Source: Bdellovibrionia bacterium (lineage in GTDB: Bacteria; Bdellovibrionota; Bdellovibrionia; Bdellovibrionales; JAGQZY01). Taken from it: DNA of 64,000 bases. Positions 43,276 through 47,006 of the stretch are shown here, one piece after another (the first letter of the stretch is position 1; every line of letters starts with the position of its first letter). Below the pieces are notes generated by a model. That model did not search any database, was not told the DNA's origin, and worked only from the letters and a program-made list of their open reading frames with translations. The stretch lies in the NCBI GenBank assembly GCA_030427805.1, contig JAUICP010000002.1:434001-498000 (forward strand), in the 5' to 3' direction. The position numbers and the translations under genes were made by a program.

Positions 43276-43431
43276 TAATTTCTCCTTATTGGGTCCTGGG
43301 CGGGACGCTAAAAACCAAAGTCTTAAATACCTGATACAACACAGCTTGGCAAAGCCTCTCAGCGAGAAATTCGACACAGACCGATATATATTCTGATGAC
43401 AGAAGGGCAATTTCTCGATAATTTCGTATCT

Positions 43432-43737
43432 ATGCCAAAAGTAACAGTTAATTCCAAATCTGCTAAGACCCAAGCCGAAGCCTTTGAGGTGGTTAAGGAC
43501 TTTATTTCTAACGACCCGGACCTTAAAAAATTGGATCCATCCTACAAGGTTGATTTTAACGAATCCAATCATTCTGGTCAGGCCAAGGGAAAACAGTTTT
43601 CCGCCCAGTTGAGAGTCAGTGGTGATGGCGATGGTTCCAGTGTTGAAATCGTGGTTGATTTGCCCTTCATGCTCTCTCCCTTTAAAGGGAAAATTCAATC
43701 GAGCCTCAAAGAAAAACTCGATAATGCTCTAGCTTAG
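43432..43737 (+). CDS. PHA-system (PF09650-like) small protein
   Basis: About 101 residues from ATG 43432 (an upstream ATG at 43396 adds 12 residues; neither has a clear ribosome-binding site). It fits the polyhydroxyalkanoic-acid system family: an N-terminal AEAFEVVKDFI helix, a strand pair FSAQLRVSGDGDGSSVEIVVDLPF, and a C-terminal amphipathic helix SPFKGKIQSSLKEKLDNAL. The biochemical role of this family is unclear; some members are tied to PHA granules. Ends 8 bases before the sigma-factor gene. Confidence 0.65.
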   Translation: MPKVTVNSKSAKTQAEAFEVVKDFISNDPDLKKLDPSYKVDFNESNHSGQAKGKQFSAQLRVSGDGDGSSVEIVVDLPFMLSPFKGKIQSSLKEKLDNALA

Positions 43738-43745
43738 GAAATCCT

Positions 43746-45266
43746 ATGGCCGCAGCAAAAAAGAAAAAGGCCTCGGAGAAAAAATCTTCGAGCAAAAAGA
43801 AAAAAACGGCCATAAAAAAGAAATCGTCCGCTAAAAAGGCGGCCGCTAAAAAATCTTCGACAAAGAAGAAGAAATCTACGGCGAAGAAATCCACAAAGAA
43901 ACTAGCAAAGAAAAAATCGACAACTAAAAAGTCGACATCAAAAAAAACCACGAAAAAGAAATTCGCAAAAAAGTCGATGACGAAGAAGAAGGCTTCTACA
44001 AAGAAGGCTTCTACAAAGAAAGTTAGTAAAAAGAAATCGACTCTTTCTGAGAAAAAAGCCACTGCGAAGAAAAAAACTGCCACTAAAAGCTCAAGAAAAG
44101 CCTCAGCGAAGAAGGCATCAAGAAAAAAAATCCACTCAAATAGTCCTTCGGAAGTGCCAACGGCGAGCGAAGCTAAAAAAGTCGAAGTCGAAATTCTTGA
44201 CGATGACTCTTGGGAAAGCGAAGGCACCTCGCAAAAGGAAAGAGTTAGCCAACAAAAAGACAAATCAAAGGACCATGACTCCATTGAAGTTCATTCGCGA
44301 GGAGTCGACAACGAATCTTCAGACCTAAAAAAACACTCTGGAGAAAAGGCCCTCAAGGCCGAAGTCGTCGACAAAATCCCGGAACCCACGAAAGAAGAAA
44401 CCGAAGAAGAATACTCTCACCTCCCAACGAGCGTTACCGATGGGCTTGGGATGTATCTTGCAGAAATTCGCAAGTACCCGCTTCTGACCAAAGAACAAGA
44501 GCAAATAATAGCCAAACGCTATAAAGAAAAGGGTGACCCCAAAGATGCAGAGATTTTGGTGACGTCCAATTTGCGCTTTGTGGTCAAGGTGGCGTCCGAA
44601 TACGCAAAGTTTGGAGCAAAGCTCATTGATCTCATTCAAGAAGGCAACGTAGGCCTCATGCATGCGGTTAAAGAGTTTAACCCCTATAAAGGTGTGCGCC
44701 TTATTACCTATGCCGTTTGGTGGATTCGCGGATACATTCAAGAGTATCTTATGAAGCAGTACTCAATGGTAAAAATTGGAACGACGGCCAACCAAAGAAA
44801 GCTTTTCTATCGCCTTGAAAAAGAAAAAAAGAAAATCGAGCAAGAAGGCCTTGAGCCAACCGTCAAATTGCTCAGTGCGCGCCTTGGTGTCGGTGACGAT
44901 GATGTCAAACTAATGGAAAAGCGCATGCAGGGCCGAGATATTAGTCTTGATGCCCCTGTCGATGCCAGTGGAAGTACGCGCCTTCTCGATTTTGAAAGCT
45001 CCGATGATGTGAGCCCCGATGAACTTCTTGGCCACTTTGAGGAAATCGCCACTCTCAACAATATGGTTGAAGAGCTGAAGCCGACCCTTAACGAAAAAGA
45101 AAATTATATTCTCGAAGAACGCATTCTTTCTGAAGACCCTAAAAAGTTGCAAGAAATCGGCGAAGAGTGGGGAGTGACCCGCGAGGCGGTCCGGCAAATG
45201 GAAGCCCGAGTGATTAAGAAAATCAAAGATAAGGTTCTTTCCAACCAAGGCGGAACCCGAGTATAA
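43746..45266 (+). CDS. rpoH: RpoH-type (sigma-32) sigma factor with histone H1-like N-terminal tail
   Basis: 506 residues, versus about 285-300 for sigma-32. Residues about 1-128 are almost only Lys, Ser, Thr and Ala (AKKSTKK, TKKASTKK patterns), as in histone H1 and bacterial H1-like tails. Residues 129-225 are an acidic linker. From about 230 comes a normal sigma-70 family core: region 1.2 GMYLAEIRKYPLL, region 2 LVTSNLRFVVKVA and DLIQEGNVGLMHAV, 2.4 TYAVWWIRGYIQEY, the RpoH box NQRKLFYRLEK, region 3, and the 4.2 helix-turn-helix IGEEWGVTREAVRQME. It directs heat-shock-type promoters in known cases. AGGA lies 6 bases before the ATG. Confidence 0.85.
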   Translation: MAAAKKKKASEKKSSSKKKKTAIKKKSSAKKAAAKKSSTKKKKSTAKKSTKKLAKKKSTTKKSTSKKTTKKKFAKKSMTKKKASTKKASTKKVSKKKSTLSEKKATAKKKTATKSSRKASAKKASRKKIHSNSPSEVPTASEAKKVEVEILDDDSWESEGTSQKERVSQQKDKSKDHDSIEVHSRGVDNESSDLKKHSGEKALKAEVVDKIPEPTKEETEEEYSHLPTSVTDGLGMYLAEIRKYPLLTKEQEQIIAKRYKEKGDPKDAEILVTSNLRFVVKVASEYAKFGAKLIDLIQEGNVGLMHAVKEFNPYKGVRLITYAVWWIRGYIQEYLMKQYSMVKIGTTANQRKLFYRLEKEKKKIEQEGLEPTVKLLSARLGVGDDDVKLMEKRMQGRDISLDAPVDASGSTRLLDFESSDDVSPDELLGHFEEIATLNNMVEELKPTLNEKENYILEERILSEDPKKLQEIGEEWGVTREAVRQMEARVIKKIKDKVLSNQGGTRV

Positions 45267-45322: not shown

Positions 45323-46102
45323 TTAAGAAGCTTCCATTTCTTGCTCGCCAAAAACGATCTGCAACTTAGCTCTAAGTCTTGCGACGGCCTGAGCGTGGAG
45401 CTGAGAAACTCGACTTTCTGTCACGCGAAGCACTTTACCGATTTCTTTCAAGTTTAAGTCCTCATAGTAGTAAAGAGAAAGAACGAGTCTTTGTCTCTCA
45501 GGAAGCTCCTCGATAGCTCGAGTGACGACTTCTTTTACTGACTTAGAGTTTAACTGATTAAATGGATTATTTAATTTAGCACCCTCTAGGATGCTTAGAA
45601 TAGACTTCTTATCGACATTACTAAATGTAGCTCGCTCATCAATTGAGAGAACACTTACCGGTCGAACCTGATTAACCAGATCGTAGAACTCGTCCATGGT
45701 CATACCAAGCTTCGCTGCCACTTCTTCGTCCTCAGGCGAACGTCCAAGTTCAGTCTCCAGCTCACCAATAGTTCGATCTAAGAGCTTAGCTTTATCTCGA
45801 ACCGAACGGGGCACCCAATCCTGAGCTCTGAGTTCATCGAGAATCGAACCACGAATACGAAATTCTGCATAAGTCTTAAACTTATTATCACGTGTCGGAT
45901 CGTATTTCTCGATGGCATCCATTAGGCCTATTACTCCACTTGAAATAAGGTCATCGAGCTCGATATTAGAAGGTAGTCTCACGGCTATCTTCTGAGCGAT
46001 AAACTTAATGAGCGGCGCATACTCCATGATCAACTTATCTTTTTGTTGAGGAGTTAACTTACTAGGCTCTTCTTTATATTTTTTAAGTAAGCTTGAGGAC
46101 AT
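45323..46102 (-). CDS. fliA: Flagellar sigma-28 factor
   Basis: Directs late flagellar genes. The start is ATG 46102 with AAGGAAGG upstream, giving 259 residues. Region 2 (LIKFIAQKIAVRLP, DDLISSGVIGLMDAIEKYDPTRDNKFKTYAEFRIRGSILDELR across two stretches), VPRSVRDKAK, region 3 LGRSPEDEEVAAKLGM, and region 4 LPERQRLVLSLYYYEDLNLKEIG followed by LRVTESRVSQLHAQA are all in place. Last gene of the flagellar operon; a 61-base gap after flhG precedes it. Confidence 0.96.
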   Translation of the reverse strand: MSSSLLKKYKEEPSKLTPQQKDKLIMEYAPLIKFIAQKIAVRLPSNIELDDLISSGVIGLMDAIEKYDPTRDNKFKTYAEFRIRGSILDELRAQDWVPRSVRDKAKLLDRTIGELETELGRSPEDEEVAAKLGMTMDEFYDLVNQVRPVSVLSIDERATFSNVDKKSILSILEGAKLNNPFNQLNSKSVKEVVTRAIEELPERQRLVLSLYYYEDLNLKEIGKVLRVTESRVSQLHAQAVARLRAKLQIVFGEQEMEAS

Positions 46103-46163
46103 TCTACCTTCCTTATAACTTAAAGGTATCAAACAGAACGAGTTCTCAAAAGTCCAAATCTTT

Positions 46164-47006
46164 TCATGCCACACCTAAGAGCTGGCGCCAGAAAAATTGT
46201 AGACTTCCTTTACAACTGTCTATTTGATTGTAACCACTTAATTCATTTGCAATTTCTCGTATTGAGACAGTCGAGATAGCGTCTGGATGGGATCTAACTA
46301 CAAGCTTTTGTGTTTGTGTTGTTTGCCTCAGAACTTTATCTTGAGGGATTGAACCCAAATAATCAAGACTCAAGTACAGAAACTTTGAACAGATATCGTT
46401 AATTTTGGAAAACAAACGCTTTCCTTGTGCAACATCTGATACTTGATTGCAAATAATAGAAAATCTTTGTTCACGATAGTGCTGATTCAACACCTTCATC
46501 AGTGCATAGGAGTCAGCAATCGATGCAGGGTCCGGGGTAATAACAACACAAATCTGTTGAGCAGCACTATTTAAGAAGAGGACTTGGTCACTAATACCAG
46601 GAGCCGTATCGACTAACATATAGTCATAGTGAGTTCCGATCTCACTTATTTGCTCTATAAGTTGTGCTTTTTCTACTGTAGATATTTTTGACATCTCGTA
46701 GAGCCCACTACCACCAGACAATAGGTCTATATTTTTATCGATTCTATGAATCGCATCCTCGACACTCACTCTCCCTTGAAGAATATCTCCAATGTGATGC
46801 TGAGACCTTACTCCAAACATAATATCTACATTCGCCATGCCAAGGTCACCGTCTAGTATAAGAACCTTGTGACCCTGAGATGCTAGGCTGAGTGCTAGAT
46901 TTGAAGTAATTGTCGTCTTCCCTACCCCACCTTTACCTGAGGCAATACTCAAAACTTTTGTGTGGGAACCGTGTTGGCCATATAAATTTGGACTCTGATA
47001 ACTCAT
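46164..47006 (-). CDS. flhG: FlhG (FleN/MinD-like) flagellar number regulator
   Basis: 280 residues, ParA/MinD ATPase. Deviant Walker A SGKGGVGKTTITSNLA near residue 23, Walker B-like ILDGDLGMANVDIMFG, and LVDTAPGIS. FlhG works with FlhF to set flagellum number and place at the pole and can inhibit the master EBP in polar flagellates. Lies 6 bases after flhF. The N-terminus lacks an obvious long DQAxxLR FliM/EBP-binding motif. Confidence 0.94.
   Translation of the reverse strand: MSYQSPNLYGQHGSHTKVLSIASGKGGVGKTTITSNLALSLASQGHKVLILDGDLGMANVDIMFGVRSQHHIGDILQGRVSVEDAIHRIDKNIDLLSGGSGLYEMSKISTVEKAQLIEQISEIGTHYDYMLVDTAPGISDQVLFLNSAAQQICVVITPDPASIADSYALMKVLNQHYREQRFSIICNQVSDVAQGKRLFSKINDICSKFLYLSLDYLGSIPQDKVLRQTTQTQKLVVRSHPDAISTVSIREIANELSGYNQIDSCKGSLQFFWRQLLGVA

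Follow-up and report, generated by a model that had tools for sequence, protein, structure and literature searches.

A lysine-rich tail and a conserved linker motif ahead of the sigma-32 core in a Bdellovibrionota sigma factor

Introduction

Why does a sigma-32-type factor carry, ahead of its core, a long lysine-rich tail of the histone H1-like kind? Few alternative sigma factors have been studied as well as sigma-32, and whereas E. coli RpoH has no such extension, most of its relatives in this phylum have one. The extension sits on a gene that resists deletion in the model predator Bdellovibrio, and it offers a testable handle on how a sigma factor is brought to DNA in predatory bacteria with histone-bearing chromatin. 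We approached the question from the window, the whole stretch of 64,000 nucleotides analysed from contig JAUICP010000002.1 of a Bdellovibrionia bacterium, where a sequence-only reading had marked a fusion of this kind. In window coordinates, the locus comprises:

43396..43737, plus strand: PHA_gran_rgn gene (PF09650, Pfam), its 3' end 8 bp before the sigma-32 gene
43746-45266, plus strand: sigma-32-like gene, 506 aa, ATG start
43746..44135, plus strand: Lys-rich H1-like N-terminal tail, residues 1-130 (composition, charge, dN/dS 0.29, predicted disorder)
44136..44429, plus strand: acidic linker, residues 131-228 (net charge -12, pI 4.7, dN/dS 0.13)
44175..44207, plus strand: linker motif copy 1, KKVEVEILDDD, residues 144-154 (fits the orthologue motif)
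44346..44375, plus strand: linker motif copy 2, KALKAEVVDK, residues 201-210 (fits the orthologue motif)
44430..45266, plus strand: sigma-32-like core (regions 1.2, 2, 3-like and 4) and stop codon (Pfam, NCBIfam, PDB 8hkc at E=6.9e-48)
44790..44828, plus strand: RpoH box NQRKLFYRLEKEK, residues 349-361 (alignment with E. coli RpoH)
45323..46174, minus strand: FliA/WhiG-family sigma factor, a convergent neighbour without a Lys-rich tail (NCBIfam TIGR02479 above cut-off; synteny)

Sigma-32 core and N-terminal extension

The C-terminal part of the protein (residues 229-506) is recognisable as a sigma-32 core, with Pfam matches to Sigma70 regions 1.2, 2 and 4, a score of 272.8 bits with the NCBIfam sigma-32 model NF005143 (cut-off 241), and E. 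coli RpoH (8hkc) as its closest solved relative. It falls below the cut-offs of the proteobacterial RpoH equivalog TIGR02392 (275.5 vs 323.1 bits) and of the actinobacterial SigA/HrdB primary-sigma equivalogs (108 to 122 vs 484 to 779 bits). Between regions 2.4 and 3 the RpoH box reads QRKLFYRLEKEK, and its E. coli RpoH counterpart is QRKLFFNLRKTK (PDB 8hkc). The Pfam regions, the NF005143 score and the box aligned with 8hkc thus uphold the sigma-32 core with an RpoH box proposed in the sequence-only reading. When the source genome was searched with this core, only the protein itself was returned at E 1e-60; the genome holds ten sigma-region-2 matches. Judged by sequence, the window protein is the sole sigma-32-family factor of this Bdellovibrionota genome, and it is probably essential. 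A Lys-rich tail is not a general trait of the sigma factors of this genome, as RpoD (which begins MKIDGVGMAKEKNSSASEL as called) and FliA have none. No sigma-32-type promoter or CIRCE element was found in the 260 bp upstream of the operon to which the sigma-32 gene belongs, or in the 350 bp upstream of a groES gene described below.

The tail contains 58 Lys, 23 Ser, 20 Ala and 16 Thr in its 130 residues, giving a net charge of +58 and a pI of 11.6. Composition, charge and domain matches bear out the suggested layout of H1-like Lys tail, acidic linker and sigma-32 core; the interval first assigned to the tail, 43746-44440, captures a real extension, but its end takes in the tail plus the linker. 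AlphaFold modelling (37 orthologues, a shallow alignment) returned a confident core and left residues 1-230 mostly disordered (block pLDDT 34-56), with a low-confidence helix at residues 4-26. Neither tail nor motif was seen to dock onto the sigma core in this shallow-alignment model, which does not support a motif that folds back on the core. Membership of the Pfam family HC2 (PF07382, histone H1-like) was rejected on a sub-threshold score for the tail (24.6 vs a cut-off of 40 bits), and an HC2 search of the source genome gave no matches. Nor does the tail have a recognisable homologue among solved proteins, the sole match being eS8 at E 0.6, and a tandem-repeat origin was likewise rejected, since the DNA shows just short imperfect repeats of 11-15 nt.

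Could the tail simply be an artefact of a wrong start, a frameshift or an assembly error? The ATG is preceded by an AGGA ribosome-binding-like sequence (upstream letters TTAGGAAATCCT), an in-frame stop lies 5' of the ORF at 43722-43724, and no in-frame ATG, GTG or TTG was found between residues 137 and 236, which excludes translation from near residue 225, one of two ways in which the sequence-only reading might have failed. The other, a sequencing error, is countered by a separate congener genome (locus L009, also L048/G004) that carries the same tail before a core 99% identical to that of the window protein. Nei-Gojobori dN/dS between the two is 0.016 for the core, 0.13 for the linker and 0.29 for the tail, where the changes over 125 codons number 16.5 synonymous and 19.5 non-synonymous. 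An indel of 5 codons leaves the reading frame intact. Tail sites differ at 3 of 58 Lys-containing positions against 13 of 65 others (Fisher p 0.017); Lys is thus preferentially retained, even though more synonymous codons are available to Ala, Ser and Thr. Because a separate genome shares the tail, with this substitution pattern (omega 0.29) and an in-frame indel, the tail is not an artefact, and it is both translated and under purifying selection. The second genome, the synonymous excess and the in-frame indel rule out a wrong start, frameshift or assembly error, and the end of the upstream gene 8 bp before the ATG and the conserved synteny count against one as well. With nothing found in its favour, and with the congener data, start-codon scan and synteny all opposed, we give an artefact virtually no credence.

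Orthologues and the linker motif

Relatives were gathered by a contig scan and by searches of the family, order and phylum, in which 211 places were read; for counting, some genomes that bear two locus ids were merged on the basis of their core sequence. A sigma-32 match was present in 102/103 good genomes of the order and 232/235 of the phylum, as a single copy in almost every genome, and no plasmid record covered 80% of the tailed sigma-32 query. Among the 211 loci, many of them incomplete, the arrangement AspS(-), PHA_gran(+), sigma(+), FliA(-) has been conserved: PHA_gran lies on the sigma-32 strand in 160 of these often incomplete loci, and the gene that we take from its sequence, without a profile-library scan, to be AspS lies on the opposite strand in 152. 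In most of the Bdellovibrionota examined the PHA_gran_rgn and sigma-32 genes are neighbours on one strand, which suggests an old two-gene operon. The same locus and neighbours also occur in CALQIT020000010.1 (L023), which is titled Streptomyces griseus, an organism label that is probably wrong.

We compared 121 distinct orthologues, belonging to roughly the same order, whose cores are 54% or more identical and whose extensions reach 25 aa or more. Their median extension has 89 aa and 13 Lys. The longest is that of the window protein, with 70 Lys and 225 aa ahead of the query core, followed by that of L115 (191 aa, 40 Lys). Most share a Lys-rich start followed by an acidic linker, with 31% Lys and 5.5% Asp plus Glu before the motif described below and 6% Lys and 27% Asp plus Glu after it. 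The extension is usual and not universal, because some members have one that is very short, mainly acidic or nearly absent: L116, L154 and L172 have almost no Lys stretch (the extensions of L116 and L172 being very short or mainly acidic), and L174-L176 and the outgroup members L187 and L216 have a very short extension or almost none. The fusion singled out in the sequence-only reading is therefore unusual in its length, but a Lys-rich/acidic extension as such is usual among orthologues of the order, the tail itself recurring in the congener and most orthologues of the order having the same layout in shorter form. The tail exaggerates, within one genus, an order-wide extension that has a weaker form across the phylum, and its H1-like extreme length is confined to the genus of the window protein.

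At the Lys-rich/acidic border of these extensions lies a conserved short motif, [KR]xVx[AP]E[IV]V[DE], which is without description in any profile library used. These same sequences served to define the pattern, by eye, and its figures describe conservation and not independent prediction: a relaxed form occurs in 84% of the 121 extensions against 4.6% in residue shuffles (sd 1.9, maximum 11.6%), a four-residue core pattern in 34/62 after thinning to <70% core identity (2.4 expected, maximum 9), and the same core pattern in 16/43 outside the order-level set (1.5 expected). Conservation of the motif within the order far exceeds chance expectation; the motif persists weakly across the phylum, and several copies are present in L115. 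The linker of the window protein, at first read as acidic, is indeed acidic, but it also carries this motif, which had gone unseen.

The family includes Bd3314 of Bdellovibrio bacteriovorus, as four published bd3314 primers (strain HD100) match locus L080 (genome G008) exactly. Bd3314, of 373 aa as annotated, is transcribed constitutively and was thought by its authors to be an alternative sigma 70, and its deletion failed in 287 isolates (PMC3464611). Its extension (G008, L087) begins MAKTKAKSPSTPKTKSPSKTASAKK, has KSVVAELVDD, then turns acidic, and spans 97 aa in all; it is not discussed in the passages of PMC3464611 consulted. Bd3314 is absent from the main text of the Bdellovibrio proteome and Tn-seq papers, and literature searches on lysine-rich sigma N-termini found nothing relevant.

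Lysine-rich tails elsewhere in the source genome

A KKxxKK-type codon pattern matched the source genome (G000) 85 times against 20 for a reversed control, which is high and not unique in the order (G098, 108 vs 11). The following list of tailed proteins is partial, as it comes from reading a subset of the places in G000:

L251:1153-1938 (contig 1 near 513 kb), minus strand: GroES, N-terminal Lys-rich tail, about 165 residues (Cpn10 E=2e-24)
G000: PDH E1-alpha, Lys-rich tail
G000: AhpC/TSA peroxiredoxin, Bcp-type, Lys-rich tail
G000: L21 and a KOW/L24-like protein, C-terminal Lys-rich tails
G000: TopA, C-terminal Lys-rich tail
G000: ExoVII large subunit, Lys-rich tail
G000: SWIB protein, Lys-rich tail
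G000: IF-2-like protein, Lys-rich tail
L264:80-1282, plus strand: Topoisomerase VI-B transducer-like protein, C-terminal Lys-rich tail (PF09239, E=7e-46)
L267:1071-1310 (contig 9 near 35.7 kb), minus strand: bacterial histone-fold protein, 79 aa, DUF1931-like

The loci are L255 (PDH E1-alpha), L258 (KOW/L24-like protein), L261 (peroxiredoxin), L262 (L21), L256 (TopA), L253 (ExoVII large subunit), L265 (SWIB protein) and L268 (IF-2-like protein); the IF-2, L24 and Bcp-type names, based on sequence or on a broad Pfam domain, are presumptive. A Lys-rich tail on the co-chaperonin GroES was unexpected. A further protein, at L266:1317-2147 (plus strand), joins a Lys-rich tail and an acidic stretch, KEVELLEDEEYEE, to a small possible zinc-binding domain; it has no confident family match, and its layout recalls that of the sigma-32 extension. 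The 79-aa histone matches PDB 9qt0 (E=5.6e-12) and Bdellovibrio HBb 8cmp (E=5.6e-5), and its N-terminal Lys-rich tail has 18 residues; positively charged tails are reported to be common in bacterial FtF histones (PMC11390915). G000 also has a basic-acidic protein with counterparts in other genera, and such proteins were seen in three genera:

L263:1112-1939, minus strand; L274:1277-1873, plus strand; L278:1246-1815, minus strand: a long Lys-rich half, then a half rich in Asp/Glu with GYF or GLF at its end; no match in Pfam

These are possibly a conserved, unnamed chromatin-like protein. As Lys-rich tails occur on many unrelated proteins, that of the sigma-32 factor is part of a wider habit of the genome, and if functional these genome-wide H1-like tails, GroES included, would represent a new targeting principle. 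By itself, however, a Lys-rich tail is no argument for DNA anchoring, because unrelated GroES, PDH E1-alpha and peroxiredoxin carry one too.

A possible role for the extension

Taken together, we propose that the extension is a putative disordered polyanion (nucleoid) tether that bears a docking motif and is moderated by the acidic linker, an account to which we give about an even chance. The Lys stretch would bind polyanions in a sequence-independent manner, with nucleoid DNA the likeliest ligand, although RNA or polyphosphate (polyP) is possible and would serve equally well, and would thereby raise the local concentration of the sigma-32 factor or holoenzyme at DNA. The acidic linker would act as a spacer able to neutralise or compete with the tail, and the motif would dock a putative partner protein; in the genus of the window protein, the tail would have grown within the genome-wide habit of Lys-rich tails. 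This account is consistent with the purifying selection on tail and linker, the retention of Lys, the order-wide layout, the motif, the predicted disorder and the resistance of Bd3314 to deletion, and several tailed proteins of the genome act on DNA or RNA (TopA, ExoVII, SWIB, L21, L24 and the histone). The lysine repeats of TopA and the basic disordered domain of CarD, both compared below, are precedents for it. Against it, DNA tethering does not explain the tails of GroES, PDH E1-alpha and peroxiredoxin, and some orthologues have almost no Lys stretch or extension.

The confinement of the extreme length to one genus could also mean that just a short ancestral Lys patch and the motif matter, the 130-residue length being a low-complexity expansion of this lineage that adds little function, within a genome-wide inflation of Lys-rich tails. 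The faster evolution of the tail relative to linker and core, and the many unrelated proteins of the genome that are tailed, would fit; yet a tail dN/dS of 0.29, the preferential keeping of Lys across the congener divergence and the scarcity of internal DNA repetition argue otherwise, and we consider such an expansion somewhat unlikely. A different role is suggested by the family itself, as E. coli sigma-32 is under regulated turnover and the family is known for chaperone and protease control: the extension might be a stability or chaperone handle, with its disordered N-terminus an FtsH/Lon start site and the motif a DnaK/DnaJ or protease-adaptor site. The motif is a short hydrophobic strand preceded by basic residues, as such a site could be, but the acidic residues that follow it are unfavourable for DnaK and a handle has no need of Lys-rich composition, making this very unlikely.

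The tail may instead be a polyphosphate- or RNA-binding tag, tying a stress sigma factor to polyP/RNA condensates and not to DNA. Windows within residues 1-44 qualify as PASK as published (D/E/S/K making up 75% or more of 20 aa; PMC12345225), through Lys and Ser rather than acidic residues, although PASK-like composition is not specific. The Lys-rich disordered N-terminus of E. coli YihI binds polyP (PMC12345225), the H1-like tail of AlgP acts on and positions polyP granules (PMC9239181), and tails on GroES and peroxiredoxin suit stress better than DNA. The neighbouring PHA_gran gene, on the other hand, concerns another polymer, and overall we regard a polyP or RNA tag as rather improbable. 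We would hold out about as little hope for a bolder scheme, a new kind of phylum-wide sigma-32 control module, formed by the disordered extension, in which VxAEIVD docks a lineage-specific partner, the lysine tail sits on nucleoid or polyphosphate, and in this genus a Lys-rich tail is a proteome-wide address tag, a reading that takes in GroES, peroxiredoxin, ribosomal proteins, topoisomerases and a bacterial histone.

Comparison with known systems

Actinobacterial SigA/HrdB N-termini are also Lys/Ala-rich and then acidic, and the alignment with NCBIfam NF004565 starts at residue 7 of the window protein; however, SigA/HrdB are Group 1 sigma factors and the window protein scores 108 vs 484 bits with NF004565, so that this is a resemblance of layout alone and not homology of the tails. 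E. coli RpoH (8hkc) shares the core regions and the RpoH box, but has 284 aa and no N-terminal extension, compared with 506 aa here. The lysine repeats that keep Streptomyces TopA on DNA (PMC7398561) and the tails of AlgP/PhaF (PMC9239181) are H1-like Lys/Ala low-complexity sequences similar to the window tail, although these are different proteins with C-terminal tails and without a sigma core. Myxococcus CarD (HMGA/H1-like) is likewise a transcription protein in which a basic disordered DNA-binding region lies next to an acidic segment, and this basic domain maximises sigma-dependent activation (PMC4374960); CarD, however, is not a sigma factor, belongs to another family, and carries its AT-hooks and basic region at the C-terminus. 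Bd3314 and the other Bdellovibrionota orthologues have in common with the window protein core identity, gene order, a Lys-rich start, the motif (VVAELVDD) and an acidic linker, and differ in scale, with an extension of about 97 aa and 15 Lys in Bd3314 against about 228 aa and 70 Lys in the window protein.
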